64,000 nt of DNA. It comes from Planctomycetota bacterium. GTDB taxonomy: Bacteria > Planctomycetota > B15-G4. The notes beneath the pieces were generated by a model, which saw nothing but the letters and a program-made list of their open reading frames with translations, was not told the DNA's origin and made no database searches. Each line of letters begins with the position of its first letter. Position 1 is the first letter of the stretch. Shown here in pieces: positions 1-25,901 of this stretch. The stretch is from positions 1 to 64,000 of the forward strand of contig JAJDEO010000054.1 of NCBI GenBank assembly GCA_029259745.1, read 5' to 3'. The position numbers were made by a program, and so were the translations under genes.

Positions 1-102
1 CGCTCTCACGACCGTCACGCGATCCCACCTACGAAACCCGGCGGGCCCGAGCGTCGCCGCCCCCGACATCCGACGACGGCGGACCAGCACCCCCAAAAAG
101 CC

Positions 103-609
103 CTACCGCCCCAAAGCCCCCCTAACACCCCCAGCCCACCGCGATATCACCCCCCTCATCCCGACGCCGTCCAACAGCCGCGCCGCCTCCGCACGCCGTC
201 CACCGCACAACGCCACATGCGCCCGCAGCACGACGAGTCGGCTCGACTCGCCTTCGGCTTCGATCAGTTCATCGACGAGCGCCTCGCACGCGGCGCGCAG
301 CTGCCTCGCGTCGGCCTTCGACAGACCCCGTGGACTCGTCATTCCAAGGCGCTTGCAGAAGATCTCGATCTCTTCAACGATCTCCGCGGTCGCCCGTCGT
401 CCCGCAGGCCGAGCAGCGCCATCGGCACTCCGCGCCGCGACGGCCGTCGCAAGTTCCTCGGCGAGAAGTGCGAGCCGCAGCCGTCCCGCCCGGTGGGCCT
501 GCTGGACGATGCGATCGACGCGTCCGTCGCCGCTGCGACCTTCGCGCGAGAGCCACCGCAGTGCATGGGTGGCACTGCCGCTGGCCGGGACACCTGGGCG
601 CGTGTTCAT
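103..609 (-). CDS. Hypothetical Arg/Ala-rich protein, 168 aa
   Basis: I do not recognise this protein. It is basic and alanine-rich, and its second half looks like a run of amphipathic helices, as in a small helical-repeat or regulatory protein. There is no signal peptide, membrane segment or cysteine motif. The frame is open for a further 17 codons upstream, but I chose the ATG at 609 because a GGAG ribosome-binding site lies seven bases before it. The next gene on the same strand begins about 150 bases upstream, so it may be transcribed alone. That it is a real gene rests on the ribosome-binding site and on GC-biased third codon positions, not on homology. Confidence 0.55.
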   Translation of the reverse strand: MNTRPGVPASGSATHALRWLSREGRSGDGRVDRIVQQAHRAGRLRLALLAEELATAVAARSADGAARPAGRRATAEIVEEIEIFCKRLGMTSPRGLSKADARQLRAACEALVDELIEAEGESSRLVVLRAHVALCGGRRAEAARLLDGVGMRGVISRWAGGVRGALGR

Positions 610-760
610 GGAGCAACTCCTCAGCTGTGACGGTCGACGGTGATGGCGCGTTGCGAACAACGGCCAGAATGCCCGTGACGTCGAGATGACGCCACCGTCA
701 GCGCCGAGTCACACCTGTTCACTCCGAGAAATCCGACGCTGTGCCTCTGGCACACGCCGC

Positions 761-1147
761 TCAGGTGGCCTCGCCTCTCTTCGCCGCACCCCGACGGCGT
801 CGATCCCGCTCGAAGACGGCCAGATTCCGCTCGCTGGCACGGAACCAGATGTCGAAGACGTCGCCAAGCACGGGAACCGCTCCGACGAGCGCGTCAATGC
901 CGATGTTCGCAACCATGCGCCCGAGCGCCGGCTTGCTCGCCCCCATCTTCCAGGCCTGGTACGGCACCCACAGCGCCATCCCGGCGCCGAGCGCATCGCC
1001 GATGCCGGGGATCAGCCCGACGATCGAGTCGAGCCCCCAGCGCCAGGGGGTCCAGGGGATCCCGTAGGCCGCATCGAGTCGACGCGCGTGCCGGCGAAGA
1101 CGTTCGACGTCAGGGTCGTGCTCGAGGTCGTGCTCGTCGTTCGGCAT
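761..1147 (-). CDS. DUF4112 domain protein, 128 aa
   Basis: Small protein matching the DUF4112 pattern. A first half with GLIPGIGDALGAGMALWVPY is followed by NIGIDALVGAVPVLGDVFD, each half pairing a glycine-rich hydrophobic stretch with an acidic Gly-Asp. Family members are small putative membrane-associated proteins of unknown function. The N-terminus (MPNDEHDLEH) is acidic and the C-terminus strongly basic. The frame is open 25 codons further upstream, but that extension runs into the terminator hairpin at 1186-1254, so the ATG at 1147 is preferred even though it has no clear Shine-Dalgarno. The family call is fairly secure; the function is unknown. Confidence 0.75.
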   Translation of the reverse strand: MPNDEHDLEHDPDVERLRRHARRLDAAYGIPWTPWRWGLDSIVGLIPGIGDALGAGMALWVPYQAWKMGASKPALGRMVANIGIDALVGAVPVLGDVFDIWFRASERNLAVFERDRRRRGAAKRGEAT

Positions 1148-1185
1148 GGGACCAGCGTGACGAAGGAGGATCGTGGCCAGAACAT

Positions 1186-1254
1186 AAAAAGAGGGCGTGA
1201 GCGACACAGCCGACCGACCCAAGGGGTCGTTCGTACTGCGTCACTCACACCCTC
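1186..1254 (-). terminator. Long intrinsic terminator of the PRC-barrel gene
   Basis: Two arms, 1224-1254 and 1191-1220, form a hairpin of about 29 pairs around a 3-base loop, with one bulged A and one A/G mismatch. In minus-strand RNA every other imperfection is a G-U wobble, whereas in plus-strand RNA the same positions would be A/C mismatches, so the structure is specific to minus-strand transcription. On the minus strand it is followed directly by five T (A-run at 1186-1190 on the plus strand). It lies about 190 bases beyond the stop of the PRC-barrel gene. The stem is roughly two to three times longer than most bacterial intrinsic terminators. Confidence 0.85.
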
Positions 1255-1447
1255 GGTGGCGCTCGATGCTCTGAGCACGACCGGGCTCCACTGCTCGCGA
1301 CCGACCCGTCATCGGCCTCCGTGATGCGCGCACCTGTGAGCTGCGCGCCGTGGAGTTGAGCTGTGAAGCGGGGATCACGCGAGCCCTGCATGCCCGCGTT
1401 CCCATTCACCCGTCTCCGTTGTGCCCGGAGAGCGGGGAAGCGTCGTT
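1255..1447. other. Non-coding stretch between PRC-barrel stop and its terminator
   Basis: With the terminator, this makes a 300-base interval without a convincing gene. Open frames here are short and lack ribosome-binding sites. If transcription from the PRC-barrel gene stops at 1186-1254, this stretch is an unusually long 3' untranslated region that could hold a 3'-derived small RNA; no internal promoter is visible. A weak CTCCG/CGGAG hairpin lies near 1420-1440. Confidence 0.4.
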
Positions 1448-2701
1448 CTAGCGCTCGGTTCCTGACCAGAGCGCGCCACCTTTTTCATCTCGGAGATCGA
1501 ACGTGCGATCTCCCATCTCAATGGAGTTCGCGACGAAGATCACGTTGCCGCCCCAAGGAAGCTTCGTGCCGTCGACCGTGACGACAGCACGATGGGAAGC
1601 CTCGAAGTCTTCGCCGTCGAGGAATGATTTTGGTGCGACAAGGACGTCGTAGATCGGGCCGGTCTTCGTCCGCACCGTCAACCAGACGTCGTTGTTCACC
1701 GATGCCGTAGCCTTCTTCACCTGTTCGGACGTCAACCCGTCGCGAGTCTTGTCGCTGAAGTATCCGTCATGCGACACGTCGATGATGGTTCCGACGATGC
1801 GCGTGTCGGGACGGTCACGTACACGTGACGCGAGTGCGCTGTCGGAGGCCTTCGGAATCGCGTACGGCGTCCAGACATAGATGCGACGAGCGTGATGGTT
1901 CTCGTTCGACTCGTCGGTGGTGTCAGTCGTGTCGCGCCAACTGTCTTCGTCGAGCGTCTTCGCCGCAGCGACATCGCGTCGCGCGTCCTGTCCGCCTTCG
2001 GGAGCAGTGATCGCCATCGCAGGACTGCGGGGGAACGGCTCGTTCAGCTGCCGCGCCTCGTCGAAATCTGCGACGTCGGCGGCGACGATGAGTTTCCCTT
2101 CGCCGTAGCGGATCGTCTCGAGCGGGATGGCGAAGTGATCTTCGCCCATGCCGAGGAAACCGCCGCTCGCCAGGATGCCGTAGGCGCTCCCGCCGTCCGT
2201 CAAGCTCACGACGACATCGTCGAGTTCGCCGAGGGATTCGCCGCTCCAGTTCTCGACGTCGCAGTCGATGAGCCGCGAGGCACGCATGATGTGCTTGACG
2301 CGCTTGAGGCCGTGCTCACCGTCTGCGTCGGTGTCGTCATTGACGAAGGAGTCGTTGTCGCGCTCAAGCGACGCGGGCCACATCCGACGGTCGGCCGCGA
2401 TGCCGAGCGCCTCGGCCGAAGAGGCGTCGAGCTTGAAACGACCGTCCGTCCATCCGCGCGACAGTCCGTCGATGCTCGTCGCGAACGTCTCGCCGTCCAG
2501 CGTGTAGACCAAGAACTCGACTTGCCCGTCGCGCATGTCCAGCACGACATCCTTGATCTCACCTTCGAGTTCGGACGGCGGCATGCTGATTCGCGAGCCG
2601 AGAAGGTCCGAGACTTCGATCACGTCGGAGGCAGCGGTTGCGACGGATGCCGTCGCCACGAGCAGAGCCGCGCCGGAGCGCAACATCTGGGCCATACACA
2701 T
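1448..2701 (-). CDS. Exported protein with two PRC-barrel domains, 417 aa
   Basis: Begins with a signal peptide (basic MAQMLRSG, then a hydrophobic stretch to ATAASD), so it is probably exported. Two PRC-barrel-like segments follow: about residues 26-95 (DLLGSRISMP, GEIKDVVLDMRDGQVEFLVY) and about 135-200 (RLIDCDVENWSGESLGELDD, then a stretch containing GFLGMGEDHFAIPLE). The C-terminal third is acidic and contains another beta-rich segment (VGTIIDVSHDGYF). PRC barrels are small beta-barrels found in ribosome-maturation, photosynthetic and stress proteins; secreted tandem versions have no assigned role. The ATG at 2701 has an AAGGA site seven bases upstream; the frame is open 31 codons further. 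It has its own consensus sigma-54 promoter and a long terminator, so it is monocistronic. Confidence 0.75.
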   Translation of the reverse strand: MCMAQMLRSGAALLVATASVATAASDVIEVSDLLGSRISMPPSELEGEIKDVVLDMRDGQVEFLVYTLDGETFATSIDGLSRGWTDGRFKLDASSAEALGIAADRRMWPASLERDNDSFVNDDTDADGEHGLKRVKHIMRASRLIDCDVENWSGESLGELDDVVVSLTDGGSAYGILASGGFLGMGEDHFAIPLETIRYGEGKLIVAADVADFDEARQLNEPFPRSPAMAITAPEGGQDARRDVAAAKTLDEDSWRDTTDTTDESNENHHARRIYVWTPYAIPKASDSALASRVRDRPDTRIVGTIIDVSHDGYFSDKTRDGLTSEQVKKATASVNNDVWLTVRTKTGPIYDVLVAPKSFLDGEDFEASHRAVVTVDGTKLPWGGNVIFVANSIEMGDRTFDLRDEKGGALWSGTER

Positions 2702-3046
2702 GGGAGTTCCTTTCGAGCGGGTCTGTGACTTCGCATGCCGTGCGGGCGTGCAGCGCCGCTGCGGCAGTGAAATGCAAAGCAATAGGCGTGCCATCCCCGA
2801 CGATCCGCCGGTTGAAGAAATACTCCGACTGCGACGTGCGTGACCGAGTGTGCCTGTGCGAGTGTCGGAACGCTGGCGAATGAGTGGATTCGTCGAGGCT
2901 CTCGCGCTTGCACGGGCGCTCTCGGGTGCGTGCGTCGGCGGAATGAATTTTCAACGGGTTGCTCGCGCCGCACAGCGCGAACCGGGGCCCCGGGCGCTCA
3001 AAAAGGCGACTCTCGGAACCGACTTCTACAATCCGCTCCCGATCCG
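2702..3046. other. 345-base intergenic region upstream of the PRC-barrel gene
   Basis: No gene is supported here. It holds the sigma-54 promoter at 2778-2793 and, upstream of it, room for activator-binding sites. A perfect 12-base palindrome of CCGGGG/CCCCGG at 2982-2993, flanked by AGCGC and GCGCT, lies about 60 bases past the stop of the lipid kinase gene and may be its terminator, though no T-run follows. Confidence 0.5.
2778..2793 (-). promoter_or_regulatory. Sigma-54 (-24/-12) promoter for the PRC-barrel gene
   Basis: On the minus strand the site reads TGGCACGCCTATTGCT, an exact match to the sigma-54 consensus TGGCACG-N4-TTGCW with the obligatory ten bases between the GG and GC doublets. 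It faces the PRC-barrel gene and would start transcription roughly 60-70 bases before its ATG at 2701. A sigma-54 activator gene lies elsewhere in this window (24354-25901), but nothing shows that it acts here. The perfect match in an intergenic region with correct orientation and spacing makes a chance hit unlikely. Confidence 0.8.
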
Positions 3047-3940
3047 TCAGCTCGGCGTGGCGAGTTGAAGCGCCGCGGGGAGGACCGTGATCTCGGTGGG
3101 CGACGAGCCCTCGATCTCGCCGTCGACGGCGAGGATCTCTGGCGTGCGCGACTCGATGCGCACGCGGCGCGCACGCCGCACGATCACACGCTCGTCACTC
3201 ACGTGCGCTCCGTCGAAGACGCGCTGCAAGAGTTTCGTCATCGCCAGGCGCCCCATTGGCCGCACCGCGACGAGGTCGAACTCGCCGTCACCGAAGCGGG
3301 CCTCGGGCGCCATCTTCATGCCCGTGCCTGTATGGATCGTGTTGCAGGCGATCGCGAAGAGGAAGGGCCCCTCGATGACCTCGTCGTCAACGAGCAGCGC
3401 CGCGTCGTGCACGGAACGCCGTGCGACGTCGACGAGACTCGCCCACGTGTAGCGCGCCGAGCCGAGCCGTCGCCAGCGCTCGGCGCGCCGGGCGACGTCG
3501 GCGGCCATGCCGTAACCGACGACGTTGAAGGCGTGGTGGCGACGTCCATCGGCGTCGTCGATGCGCATGATGTCCAGTGGCTCGAGGTGGCCCGCGATCA
3601 GCCCGTCGACGCTGCCCAGCGGGTTGTGCAGTCCGAGGTCGTGAGCGAGGGCGTTCCCTCCGCCGGCCGGCACGAGCGCCAAGCAAGCGCGGGCGCCTTC
3701 GTCGTGCGTCATCAAGCCGGCGACGACCTCGTGCAACGTGCCGTCACCACCGACACCGACCCACGCGCGGACGTCGTCAGCATCGCGCACGATGTCGACA
3801 GCATGCCCGGCCCGCTCGGTCTCGATGACTTCCACGGGCCAACCCGCCGACGCGAGACGCTCACGCGCGGCCTGCGCTCGCTCGCCGGCGCGACCACTTC
3901 CGGCCTTGGGATTCACGAGGATGACGGTCCGTTTGCTCAC
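3047..3940 (-). CDS. Diacylglycerol/lipid kinase of the YegS/BmrU family, 297 aa
   Basis: Predicted ATP-dependent lipid kinase of the diacylglycerol-kinase catalytic family. Residues 9-16 are VNPKAGSG, residues 64-68 are the nucleotide-binding GGDGT followed by LHEVVAGL, and residues 91-96 are PAGGGN, the family's P-x-GTGN element with G in place of T. The C-terminal sandwich domain has the usual GPFLFAIACN and GDGEFDLVAV segments and VDGEI near the end. Length is typical. The start is a GTG at 3940; the much longer open frame upstream is the shadow of the cytochrome gene on the other strand. Divergent from that gene with about 117 bases between. It likely acts at the inner face of the membrane; the substrate (diacylglycerol, sphingosine-like base or other) cannot be told. 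Confidence 0.88.
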   Translation of the reverse strand: MSKRTVILVNPKAGSGRAGERAQAARERLASAGWPVEVIETERAGHAVDIVRDADDVRAWVGVGGDGTLHEVVAGLMTHDEGARACLALVPAGGGNALAHDLGLHNPLGSVDGLIAGHLEPLDIMRIDDADGRRHHAFNVVGYGMAADVARRAERWRRLGSARYTWASLVDVARRSVHDAALLVDDEVIEGPFLFAIACNTIHTGTGMKMAPEARFGDGEFDLVAVRPMGRLAMTKLLQRVFDGAHVSDERVIVRRARRVRIESRTPEILAVDGEIEGSSPTEITVLPAALQLATPS

Positions 3941-4057
3941 GTCCCCATAGTGCAATGTCCGTCGCGGCCGCCCAAGCCATCGATTCGCCGTCTCGCTCGC
4001 CACCCGCTCTCGCGCTGGCGCCTTATGCTGACGCCCGTCTTTCTCCAGGAGAACGCG

Positions 4058-7000
4058 ATGTCGAAGGTCGGGCAGACTGTGGCGCTCATTGCTGCGCTTT
4101 CGTTGGCACCTCAACTCGTCGCCCAGGGCGTCGAGTCCACGGCGACGGCGCCTTTCGCGAACTTCGAGTCTGGAGGCATCCGTCCGCTCGTCCTGCTGCC
4201 GGGCAGCGGACGACTCGCCGTCGTCAACACGCCCGATCACCGCGTGGAGTTCTACGCCGCCGCTGTTGGACAGGCGCAGGTGACGGCCCCGTTCCGGTTC
4301 CTCGGCGAGGTCTTCACCGGGCTCGAGCCCGTCGCGCTCGAGGTGAGCGACGGCACGCTGTTCGTCGCCAACACGCTGTCCGACACCGTCGCCGTCGTCG
4401 ACCTTGCCACGCAGAGCGTCATCGCGACGATCGAGGTCGGCGATGAACCGCGCGACCTGGCGATCGCCAACGGCAAGCTCTTCGTGGCAACGTCGCGCTC
4501 GAGTGCACCTTCGCTGGTGCCCGGCACGCCGATCGACAACGCGCTCGTCGTCGTCGACCTCGCGGCGCCCTACGATGTGCTCGAGCGCATCGAGATCCCC
4601 GGCCACATGCCACGCGCCCTCGAGGTCTTCGGCGACCACGTCGCCGTCATCCCGCAGAACTCGGGCAACGAGACGACGATCCTGTCGCTGCCCGAGATGC
4701 AGGCGCTGAACCTCCAACCGCTCGACCTGCTCGGCGTCGACGAGGCCTTCGAGGTCAACCCGGCGCTGGTTTCACCGGGCTTCAACGTCGGTGGATTCAA
4801 CACGAACATCTTCGGCGTCAACGGCTGGGTGATCCCCGAGACGAGCCGCATCGTCCTCGACGACGAGTTCCCCGGGCGCACGGTCGATCTCGCCGACGAC
4901 GACCTCTTCCTCGTGAACGCCACGACGTTGCAGATCGACGACACCGTGCAAGGCATCGGCACGAGCCTCTTCGACGTCGTCACCAACCCGGCCACGGGCG
5001 ACCTCTGGATCGCGAACACGAACTCCAACAATCGCACGCGCTTCGAGCCGCGTGTCCGGGGCGCGACGGTCAGCAACCGCGTCACGATCGTCACGGCCGC
5101 CGGCGATGTCGCCGAGCACATCGACCTCGCACCGCCGCTGACCACGATCCAACACGCGCAGCCGACGGCCATCGCCTTCTACAACGGCAGCGACCACACG
5201 CCGCTGGCCTACATCGGCTGCGCGGGAAGCGGCACCGTGGTCGTGCTCGATGCACTTACCGGCGCGCTCGTCGACGAACTCGACGTCGGCCTGCTCCCGA
5301 CGGGCCTCGCCGTCGATGACGATCGCAGCCTGCTCTACGTCTTCACGCGCATCGACGACACGATCCGCGCGTTCGACATCGCGAACGGCCACGCCCTCGC
5401 GGCGCGCCCGACGCCGCTGAGCTACGACCCCGAGCCCGAAGCGGTCAACATCGGCCGCGAGCATCTCTACAGCGCGCGCTCGGAAACCGGTCACGGCAAC
5501 GGCAACACGAGCTGCGCGACGTGCCACATCTCGGGCCACATCGATCAGCAGGCCTGGGACCTCGGCGACCCCGAGGGCGGCATCGGCTACTTCAACCCCG
5601 AGATCATGACCGGCTCGGTGAGCTTCGGCGGCCAGAAGGTCGCGCAGAAGAAGACGAGCATGATCCACCCGATGAAGGGCCCGATGACGACGCAGAGCCT
5701 GCGCGGTCTCGGCGTCGACGGTTCGGCGCCGTTTCATTGGCGCGGCGACCGCCCGTTCTTCCAGCACTTCCAGGGCGCCTACGTCGGACTGCTCGACGGC
5801 GGTGGGATCTCGAACGCCGACATGCAGGAGTTCGCGACATTCGTCGATTCGCTCAGCTACCCCCCGAACCCGCTGCAGCCGAAGAACCGCGAGTACGTCG
5901 ACGACGCGGCGAACGGCGCAGCGATCTACGGCCTCGTGCCCGGCGTGGCGGGCAAGCCCTACAACCAGAACTTCCCGGGCGGCACGTGCAACTCGTGCCA
6001 CACCGCGAACTTCGCCGACGGCAGCGACTTCGACGGCAGCCAACCGACCGTGAACTTCGACGCCGAGCCGCAGCTCTTCAACGCCGCGCAGCTGCGCGGT
6101 GCCTATGAGAAGGAGTTCCGCCACCTCACGGGCTTCGGGACGCTGCACGACGGCTCGCTCTCGGGCACGTTCGACTTCCTGACGAATCCGCTCATCGGCG
6201 GCGACCCCTTCCCGCTGCTCACGATCGACGAGCGCCTCGACCTCGAGGCTCTCGTGCTGCAGTGGGACACCGGCACGGCACCGGCCGTCGGAATGCAGGC
6301 GAGCTCGAGCACCGACGTCCCGAACGACGTCAGTGGCTTCCTCGCCTTCGCGGAGAGTCAGGCCATGGAAGGTCACGCTGACCTGATCGGCAAGCTCGCC
6401 GTGAACGCCGGTGTCGCCGCGCCCGTCATCGGTGTCCACTTCGCATTCGACGACCAATCGAGCACGTGGAGCTACGAGGCCGACACCGGCCGGCGCGCGA
6501 CGCAGGCCGACGTCCTCGCGGCGATCGGACAGTCGATCGTCGACGCGACATTCACGCTCGTGCCGCCGGGAACGGGTCGGCGCCTCGGCATCGACCGCGA
6601 TGAGGACGACCTGCTCGATGGCATCGAACGCGCGCTCGGCACATCGCCGCACTCGCCCGACACCGACGGCGATGGCTTCGCGGACGGTCACGAAGTTGTC
6701 TACGGAGGCCACCCGCGCATCGCCAACGCGACGCTTCCCGGCGATGTGATCGCCCCGGAGCTCACCACGCTCGAGGCCCGCGCGATCGCAACCACCACGG
6801 CCACGCTGCACGTGCAGGCCGACGAGGCCGCGAGCCTGTCGATCGCACTGGGAACGTCACCCGGCCTCGACGACCTCGGCACCGTCACCGTCGCTGCGCT
6901 GCGGCGCGTGCATGCCGTCGTGCTCGACAGCCTGCCGCCCGACACGGAAGTGAACGTCGACGTCACGGCGTCCGACCGCAACGGCTCGGCATCCACGACA

Positions 7001-7405
7001 TCGACGACATTCCTCACGGCCCCGCCCGAGTACAGCGTCGGCGACCTCGCACTCGACGCCACGCTCGACGGCTCGACGGGCGAAGTCACCGTGACGGCGC
7101 GCGTCCTGCTCGTCGACCAGGACGGCACGCCGCTGCCCGAGATGCCCGTGCGCGGACTGTGGGCCGGTGAGATCGGCACGGCCGACTTCTTCCCGATCCT
7201 CGACAGCGACGTCGACGGCTGGGCCACCTTCACCCTCGGCCCCTTCGTCGCGACGAGCGGTGCCGAAGTCACGTTCAGCCCGGCCTACATCGGCACGAAC
7301 ACAACCGGCGCAAAGGGCTTCGTCGGCTTCGGCGGCAACCGCCCCGACTTCTTCTACACGCAGATCCGCAACGCCAAGAACTCGCTCACGATCGAGCTGC
7401 CGTAG
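4058..7405 (+). CDS. Secreted beta-propeller / di-haem cytochrome c fusion, 1115 aa
   Basis: Starts at an ATG with an AGGAGA ribosome-binding site and has a signal peptide ending at LVAQ. Residues ~30-460 show YVTN-like propeller repeats (for example LFVANTLSDTVAVVDLATQ). Next is a cytochrome c peroxidase-like part with two haem c sites, CATCH at 486-490 and CNSCH at 644-648, and a KGPMTTQSLRG stretch between them. About residues 845-880 carry acidic repeats (DRDEDDLLDG, DTDGDGFADG) like thrombospondin type 3 calcium sites, and the C-terminus (~890-1115) looks fibronectin III/Ig-like. The protein probably works in the periplasm or on the surface in electron transfer or peroxide chemistry. The exact reaction is not readable. 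It stands alone, divergent from the lipid kinase and convergent with a nitroreductase. Confidence 0.85.
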   Translation: MSKVGQTVALIAALSLAPQLVAQGVESTATAPFANFESGGIRPLVLLPGSGRLAVVNTPDHRVEFYAAAVGQAQVTAPFRFLGEVFTGLEPVALEVSDGTLFVANTLSDTVAVVDLATQSVIATIEVGDEPRDLAIANGKLFVATSRSSAPSLVPGTPIDNALVVVDLAAPYDVLERIEIPGHMPRALEVFGDHVAVIPQNSGNETTILSLPEMQALNLQPLDLLGVDEAFEVNPALVSPGFNVGGFNTNIFGVNGWVIPETSRIVLDDEFPGRTVDLADDDLFLVNATTLQIDDTVQGIGTSLFDVVTNPATGDLWIANTNSNNRTRFEPRVRGATVSNRVTIVTAAGDVAEHIDLAPPLTTIQHAQPTAIAFYNGSDHTPLAYIGCAGSGTVVVLDALTGALVDELDVGLLPTGLAVDDDRSLLYVFTRIDDTIRAFDIANGHALAARPTPLSYDPEPEAVNIGREHLYSARSETGHGNGNTSCATCHISGHIDQQAWDLGDPEGGIGYFNPEIMTGSVSFGGQKVAQKKTSMIHPMKGPMTTQSLRGLGVDGSAPFHWRGDRPFFQHFQGAYVGLLDGGGISNADMQEFATFVDSLSYPPNPLQPKNREYVDDAANGAAIYGLVPGVAGKPYNQNFPGGTCNSCHTANFADGSDFDGSQPTVNFDAEPQLFNAAQLRGAYEKEFRHLTGFGTLHDGSLSGTFDFLTNPLIGGDPFPLLTIDERLDLEALVLQWDTGTAPAVGMQASSSTDVPNDVSGFLAFAESQAMEGHADLIGKLAVNAGVAAPVIGVHFAFDDQSSTWSYEADTGRRATQADVLAAIGQSIVDATFTLVPPGTGRRLGIDRDEDDLLDGIERALGTSPHSPDTDGDGFADGHEVVYGGHPRIANATLPGDVIAPELTTLEARAIATTTATLHVQADEAASLSIALGTSPGLDDLGTVTVAALRRVHAVVLDSLPPDTEVNVDVTASDRNGSASTTSTTFLTAPPEYSVGDLALDATLDGSTGEVTVTARVLLVDQDGTPLPEMPVRGLWAGEIGTADFFPILDSDVDGWATFTLGPFVATSGAEVTFSPAYIGTNTTGAKGFVGFGGNRPDFFYTQIRNAKNSLTIELP

Positions 7406-7431
7406 CACGCGTGGTCCAACGGGGCGGCAAC

Positions 7432-8052
7432 TCAGCCCAGCGCTGGGCCGTCGAGGCGATCGATCGTCACCACTTCGGACACCGGGAAGCGCTCGGTGCG
7501 GTAGGGCTTCTCGCCGCGCTGCTTGCCGAGCGTGACGAGCATCACGGGGATGTGCGTCTCTTCGTCGAGGCCGACGATGTCGGAGACCTTCTTCGGATCG
7601 AAGCCGATCATCGGACACGTCGCGAGACCCATCGTCACGGCCGCGTTCATGAGCACCATCGAGGCGAGTGATGCGCTGCGGATGGCCTCGTCGCGCTTGA
7701 GCTGCTCGTTCGTCGCGTAGAAGCCGCCGATCATCGGCACGAGCTTCTCCTGCACGGCCGGCGGCGCACTCGCGTAGACGCGCGCGGCGTCGTCATGGGC
7801 GTCGAGCTTGGCGGCGACGACGATGCAGACCGAGGCCTCCGTCACCTGCTTCTGGCCCCACGAGGCGTCCTCGACGCGCTGCCGAACGGTCGGGTCACGC
7901 AGGACGATGAAGCGCCAGTGCTGGAGGTTGTAGGACGACGGAGCACGGACCGCGAGCTCGAAGAGCGCGTGGAGATCGGCGTCGCTGACGTTGTGGTCGG
8001 GCTCGTAGGTCTTGATCGAACCGCGTTGGTGAACGGCGTCGGCGTAGTCCAT
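7432..8052 (-). CDS. Nitroreductase family FMN oxidoreductase, 206 aa
   Basis: FMN-dependent nitroreductase fold. The N-terminal RGSIKTYEPDH and APSSYNLQHWRF give the usual flavin-phosphate and dimer-interface motifs, and ASVCIVVAAK, ASLASMVLMNAA and GLATCPMIGFDP follow the family order. Family members use NAD(P)H to reduce nitro compounds, quinones or enones; the substrate cannot be named. Length is normal. It converges on the cytochrome gene with only 26 bases between stops, and sits back to back with the nuclease gene at 8160. A second, only distantly similar nitroreductase lies at 12624-13304. Confidence 0.85.
   Translation of the reverse strand: MDYADAVHQRGSIKTYEPDHNVSDADLHALFELAVRAPSSYNLQHWRFIVLRDPTVRQRVEDASWGQKQVTEASVCIVVAAKLDAHDDAARVYASAPPAVQEKLVPMIGGFYATNEQLKRDEAIRSASLASMVLMNAAVTMGLATCPMIGFDPKKVSDIVGLDEETHIPVMLVTLGKQRGEKPYRTERFPVSEVVTIDRLDGPALG

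Positions 8053-24353: not shown

Positions 24354-25901
<1,548 letters not shown>

Follow-up and report, generated by a model that had tools for sequence, protein, structure and literature searches.

An exact sigma-54 promoter element ahead of a gene for an exported PRC-barrel protein, found in a 64,000-nucleotide stretch of planctomycetotal DNA (hereafter the window), raises the question of whether this gene is truly controlled by sigma-54 and, if so, which activator would open its promoter and to what end. PRC-barrel and CsbD proteins, common among the proteins that stress induces, have no known function. The question was approached by sequence comparison within the window, across the remainder of the genome (5.88 Mb in 70 contigs, 91% complete) and among related and more distant bacteria, and the features of the window that bear on it are collected in Table 1.

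Table 1. Features of the window relevant to control of the PRC-barrel gene
Feature	Position	Strand	Evidence
DUF4112 gene, downstream of the PRC-barrel gene	761..1222	-	PF13430
PRC-barrel gene, 417 aa	1448..2701	-	PF05239 at residues 138-209, E 1.1e-13
Sigma-54 -24/-12 promoter element, TGGCACGCCTATTGCT	2778..2793	-	0 mismatches
Dispersed-repeat copy of 163 bp, bounded by terminal inverted repeats	2802..2964	-	Alignment and ends; lies between candidate activator site and promoter
Terminator-like hairpin behind the lipid-kinase gene	3007..3021	-	1 observed, 0.3 expected in shuffles
Candidate activator (enhancer) site, core TTGTAGAA/TTCTACAA at 3024-3031	3018..3037	-	Word common to the C39 and C59 PRC promoters, the mscS promoter and promoters of G008 and G002
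Diacylglycerol/YegS-type lipid kinase gene, upstream, start approximate	3047..4174	-	PF00781 and PF19279
Sigma-54-activator family protein	24354..25901	-	PF00158, E 6.2e-71

Read from 2793 to 2778, the element is TGGCACG-CCTA-TTGCT, with the GG of the -24 region and the GC of the -12 region ten bases apart and every position of the TGGCACG-N4-TTGCW context matched, and the sequence, strand and coordinates given for it in a preliminary description were correct. The ATG at 2701 lies 76 nt past the end of the motif, in agreement with the earlier estimate of about 80 bases, and is preceded by an AAGGA ribosome-binding site; if C2779 is the -12 base, transcription would begin near 2767. The encoded protein bears one PRC domain and a signal peptide judged by eye. 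Markov models of orders 0-2 trained on 300 kb of the same genome put the expectation for an exact TGGCACGNNNNTTGCW at 0.013-0.021 occurrences per 64 kb and 1.2-1.9 in the whole genome. Since sites with 2 mismatches show no excess in the window (20 observed versus 26.3 expected), only the near-exact match is informative there. Among 40 window genes whose upstream regions were scored, the PRC gene alone reached 25.25 or more out of a possible 29. No sigma-70-like promoter was found in 2650-3100, and Rfam gave no match at gathering score over positions 1-8000. By every sequence test available, the promoter is convincing.

The DUF4112 gene follows the PRC gene on the same strand after a gap of about 230-300 nt, and the two are possibly co-transcribed. 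A comparable order is seen in G008, a genome from another family of the order, where a DUF4112 gene comes two genes past a csbD that stands behind both a candidate activator word (discussed below) and a sigma-54 site. The lipid-kinase gene upstream probably lies outside the PRC operon, and the candidate activator site is situated directly past its stop codon.

The genome encodes a single RpoN (PF04552, E 2.5e-54, in a 516-aa frame) together with 17 Sigma54_activat matches, 11 of them strong. A regular-expression check found a GAFTGA-type loop in 8 of these 11, while the six weaker matches include other AAA proteins, such as one resembling ClpB. The pattern TGGCACGNNNNTTGCW occurs 11 times genome-wide, versus 4 for the same pattern read backwards as a control, and the preliminary proposal to scan for further sites was taken up: TGGCAYGNNNNTTGCW, which allows Y at position 6, has 13 genomic sites versus 1.6-2.6 expected and 4 in the backward control. 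All 13 lie between called genes, and 12 are no more than 250 nt from a start on the same strand. For sites with up to one mismatch there is no genomic excess (78 versus 111 in the backward control), so that their placement alone is informative; 25 of the 65 one-mismatch sites fall within 250 nt of a same-strand start and 39 lie between called genes, the latter count being an upper estimate because the gene caller was a simple one, which failed to call the lipid kinase and places some starts too far upstream.

Behind the 13 TGGCAYGNNNNTTGCW sites are genes for three PRC proteins, Hsp20, a ClpB-like protein, a BON protein, an ECF-sigma-like protein (by eye), a membrane protein lacking Pfam matches and four exported proteins (by eye), with one site geneless; the one of the four exported proteins that was scanned (at C63) has no Pfam match. 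One-mismatch sites precede genes for CsbD, MscS, DnaK, Dps (of the ferritin family), DUF2383, hemerythrin, Cpn60 and a short-chain dehydrogenase, among others. Across this genome and its relatives, the stress genes found behind sigma-54 sites include those for PRC, CsbD, BON, MscS, Dps, Usp and trehalose.

Several further sites were observed during these scans. Past the geneless exact site (C28:61473-61488), no gene is called for 1 kb and a terminator-like hairpin follows after about 90 nt; the site is unexplained, the candidates being a small RNA, a phage region or chance. Two divergent exact sites about 140 bp apart (C13:29062-29232) each have an exported protein behind them. The exact site at C17:63508-63523 lies 77 nt ahead of the ECF-sigma-like gene, where a cascade is possible. 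A second kinase/activator pair is found immediately ahead of dnaK (C42:64500-68100), with TGGCACGGTCTTTGTT 85 nt before the dnaK start. Another genome, G049, holds 40 TGGCAYGNNNNTTGCW matches, mostly identical copies of TGGCACGACCCTTGCT on many contigs, which probably represent a repeat carrying the motif.

Pfam returns five PRC domain matches in four genes of this genome, and exact sites precede three of them (C50, the contig of the window; C39; C59), an outcome with a chance probability of about 8e-8 if 4800 genes are assumed. The fourth PRC gene (C60) is located behind csbD, with a DUF883 gene behind; scored alone it yields P 0.068, and the site precedes the leading csbD, which has TGGCACGGCATGTGCA (1 mismatch) 108 nt upstream. 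PRC matches were found in 13 of the 58 genomes searched, this genome included. In the 12 relatives, 8 of 18 PRC genes have a best upstream sigma-54-like site at P<=0.01 against simulated sequence (G002, one of two; G008, two of three; G009, one of two; G016, both; G022 and G047, the only one in each), and the weakest of these eight scores is matched by just one of the 40 window genes, the PRC gene itself. A convincing site is absent at the other 10 of the 18, and six of the 12 genomes have none at P<=0.01. From this recurrence, PRC genes appear to belong to a sigma-54 stress regulon, and sigma-54 control appears to be a lineage feature of the PRC and stress set. The preliminary description had called such control unusual for a PRC-barrel protein, a view that is not supported because sites precede PRC genes as a rule in this lineage; its underlying proposal of sigma-54 control with an ATP-driven activator is well supported at the sequence level by the presence of RpoN and of the strong activator matches, by sites at all four PRC operons and by their recurrence in relatives.

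A search for words shared among upstream regions returned TTCTACAA in 5 of 17, with 0.2 expected, and this word, which occurs 11 times in 300 kb, is a candidate activator site. As it was first found post hoc, by searching many words, it was tested in other genomes. In the clear cases the word lies 230 bp from the -24 element in the window, 71 bp at C39, 81 bp at C59 and 61 bp before mscS, and the csbD of this genome has ATCTACAA at 81 bp. One further copy, ahead of an SDR gene (SDR13), is probably coding and was discounted, and the other top words from the search for inverted repeats and gapped words were mostly GC-rich noise, with only TTCTACAA supportable elsewhere. The word was not seen before the Hsp20, ClpB, DnaK or Dps genes of this genome.

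Among relatives, a G008 PRC gene (C341) has TTCTACAAACGCG 70 bp before its sigma-54 site, and TTCTACAA is absent near the PRC-gene sites of G002, G009, G016, G022 and G047. When 392 genomes of the phylum were searched for the word together with a site, 49 had a match, and G008 ranked at the top with five (control 0), all of which read TTCTACAAACG. These five precede genes for PRC, CsbD, a Usp/SpoIIAA/DUF2383 protein, a CBS protein and an unnamed product followed by Usp, and after this last locus comes a trehalose-6-phosphate synthase gene with a site of its own. A DUF883 gene of G002 has the word 70 bp ahead of its site. The opposite orientation of the word gave three matches in three of 14 genomes of the order, including that before mscS here. 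The shared word is limited to PRC, CsbD and MscS in this genome, and to PRC, CsbD, Usp, CBS and DUF883 in relatives.

The dispersed repeat occupies most of the region 2800-3040. It measures about 165-175 bp, carries terminal inverted repeats near TAGCAGCCYGTTGAARAACT and looks like a MITE. Scoring of 40 of 202 candidates gave at least 43 further matches in the genome; 40 of these exceed 140 bases, and two of the long copies stand in tandem at C24. The window copy is only about 83-87% identical to the others and is therefore not new. One of its ends is 8 bp upstream of the -24 element, the other 59 bp from the TTCTACAA core. Subtraction of the 163-bp copy from the 230 bp between core and -24 leaves 67 bp, which falls inside the range of 58-90 bp seen in the remaining clear pairs and so fits the reading of an insertion; no empty site without the repeat was seen. 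Palindromes for an activator had been anticipated in 2800-3040, and the inverted repeats there belong mostly to the dispersed element, with the candidate activator site on its far side.

The search for an activator might begin with the one encoded in the window, but a regular-expression check found no GAFTGA-type loop in it and it is for this reason a weak candidate. This protein adjoins unrelated genes. The best candidate appears to be a histidine kinase and NtrC-type regulator pair at C24, whose pairing with the word we infer from sequence context. Its regulator combines a PF00072 receiver, a PF00158 Sigma54_activat domain, a PF02954 Fis-type HTH and a GAFTGA loop, the domain make-up of the NtrC family; compared with the named NtrC-type regulators of NCBIfam (NtrC, AtoC, ZraR, PrsR and others), none of the best 25 of 93 families matched at its curated cut-off. 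The pair stands between mscS, divergent and bearing both word and site, and a BON gene with an exact site. The best match to the regulator in G002 (60%) lies directly upstream of the word, an exact site and a csbD-like gene (by eye), past which are a second exact site and a gene for iron/manganese superoxide dismutase. The G009 match (49%) has two PRC genes next on the same strand, and that of G016 (54%) has a PRC gene about 3 kb away.

In a tree of 42 regulators, with rows picked by hand, the C24 regulator, its paralog at C23, the G002, G009 and G016 matches and 23 named rows form one clade (98/98); C42, C56, C21 and the best matches of G008 and G011 fall outside. The recognition helix reads LKTLYARL in C24, C23 and G002 and LKTLYNRL in most other members shown, a difference that, speculatively, could go with a different binding site. 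Relatives of the regulator in named genomes come from several phyla, and of 593 confirmed matches 80 loci were retained, with flanks of up to 6 kb and no matched control. These flanks contain PRC at 7 loci (in Cupriavidus and others), trehalose synthase at 19, BON at 7 and DUF883 at 5, and 38 of the 80 hold at least one sought stress family. Stress neighbours were found at 30 of 55 loci with regulator identity of at least 47% versus 8 of 25 below that value, which is not significant (Fisher P 0.09). Two Cupriavidus loci present TGGCCCG-N4-TTGCA ahead of genes leading into PRC, and the one word-plus-site pair among the 80 loci looks incidental. A peptide-pattern scan of the named genomes revealed no relatives of the PRC protein of the window.

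Taken at the level of sequence, these observations make it fairly probable that the element works as a sigma-54 promoter within a stress regulon, activated by the C24 pair through TTCTACAA with looping over the repeat. RNA polymerase with RpoN would wait in a closed state at 2793..2778 until the histidine kinase, on sensing a stress, phosphorylates the NtrC-family regulator paired with it. The regulator would then bind near TTCTACAA (3018-3037), loop over the intervening DNA and open the promoter using ATP, and the exported PRC-barrel protein, perhaps with the DUF4112 protein, would be made alongside other PRC proteins, CsbD, MscS and further envelope or osmotic stress proteins, a role in stress being presumed for it as well. 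With the 163-bp repeat in between, the loop would have grown from about 67 to 230 bp, a change that enhancer-type promoters can tolerate.

Other readings deserve consideration. With eleven strong activator matches to choose from, the promoter could be real and yet answer to a different activator, for example the C23 paralog, which shares the clade of C24, or the C42 pair beside dnaK, with TTCTACAA bound by another protein. The draft of G008, in which the word is present yet no member of the regulator clade was found, speaks for such an arrangement, whereas C24 adjoins a word-bearing promoter here, its G002 match adjoins another, C42 falls outside the clade and the candidate within the window lacks the loop; we judge this alternative the less likely one, while giving it real weight. 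The position of the repeat, exactly between word and promoter and a mere 8 bp from the -24 element, would also suit a decayed or silenced copy, in which the activator site was uncoupled from the promoter and the PRC gene is silent or otherwise driven. Sigma-54 activators generally tolerate distance to the promoter, though, and the -24/-12 element is still a perfect consensus even though the repeat is not new, which leaves this reading improbable.

Least likely is a chance match, with the PRC gene transcribed from another promoter. The backward control does yield 4 matches against 11 genome-wide, and the window shows no excess at 2 mismatches, but so small an expectation per window for an exact site, its recurrence at the other three PRC operons and in relatives, and the want of a sigma-70-like site at 2650-3100 all count against chance.

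Parallels to the proposed regulon can be drawn from the accessible text of several reports. The EcfG regulons of alphaproteobacteria hold PRC-barrel, csbD and mscS as general-stress genes (PMC6599016; PMC7083833), and the EcfG/PhyR response thus overlaps in its targets with the set described here, but its switch is an ECF sigma factor whereas the present promoters are of the sigma-54 type. For Planctomycetia, predicted sigma-54 promoters have been reported for chaperones, MscS (COG0668) and Usp (COG0589) (Carrera-Reyna et al. 2025; PMC12316311), all of which are shared with the sigma-54-linked genes of this genome or its relatives; the main text of that paper does not include PRC, CsbD or trehalose, and neither an activator site nor a regulator appears to be proposed there. 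NmpR from Myxococcus xanthus is an NtrC-type protein that acts on Usp and CBS genes through sigma-54, but it is linked to low oxygen and the site GCGCA-N5-TGCGC, with no PRC in the text of the paper (PMC11841059). An NmpR-type regulon was rejected here: that site is not enriched, 4 mismatches separate it from the best match at the promoter of the window, and matches with 2 mismatches occur elsewhere at the background rate (0.71 per 300 bp). DVU3305 of Desulfovibrio vulgaris is, like the candidate proposed here, a two-component sigma-54 activator with a general-stress label, its targets being annotated 'General stress response, transmembrane transport'; only two operons are given for it in the table and no PRC in the main text, and the likeness is one of description (PMC4641369). 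PRC-barrel is not mentioned in the accessible text of Francke et al. (2011; PMC3162934). Among the papers listed in a literature search, none reports sigma-54 control of PRC-barrel or CsbD genes, which is no proof of absence.

Beyond the single locus, it is conceivable, if tentative, that sigma-54 runs a general stress response in place of sigma-S, sigma-B or EcfG, in which a clade of NtrC-type regulators spanning this phylum, Acidobacteriota, Myxococcota and Pseudomonadota commands PRC, CsbD, BON, trehalose and MscS genes, and in which this order employs a TTCTACAAACG enhancer that serves the window promoter across a mobile-element insertion. If true, such a response would be strictly gated by its activator, unlike the logic of sigma competition that underlies sigma-S, sigma-B and EcfG. 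We know of no general stress regulator described for this lineage, and the present analysis offers it a concrete candidate regulator, binding word and list of targets. The PRC promoter of the window would, in addition, provide a natural experiment on enhancer distance, at 67 versus 230 bp.
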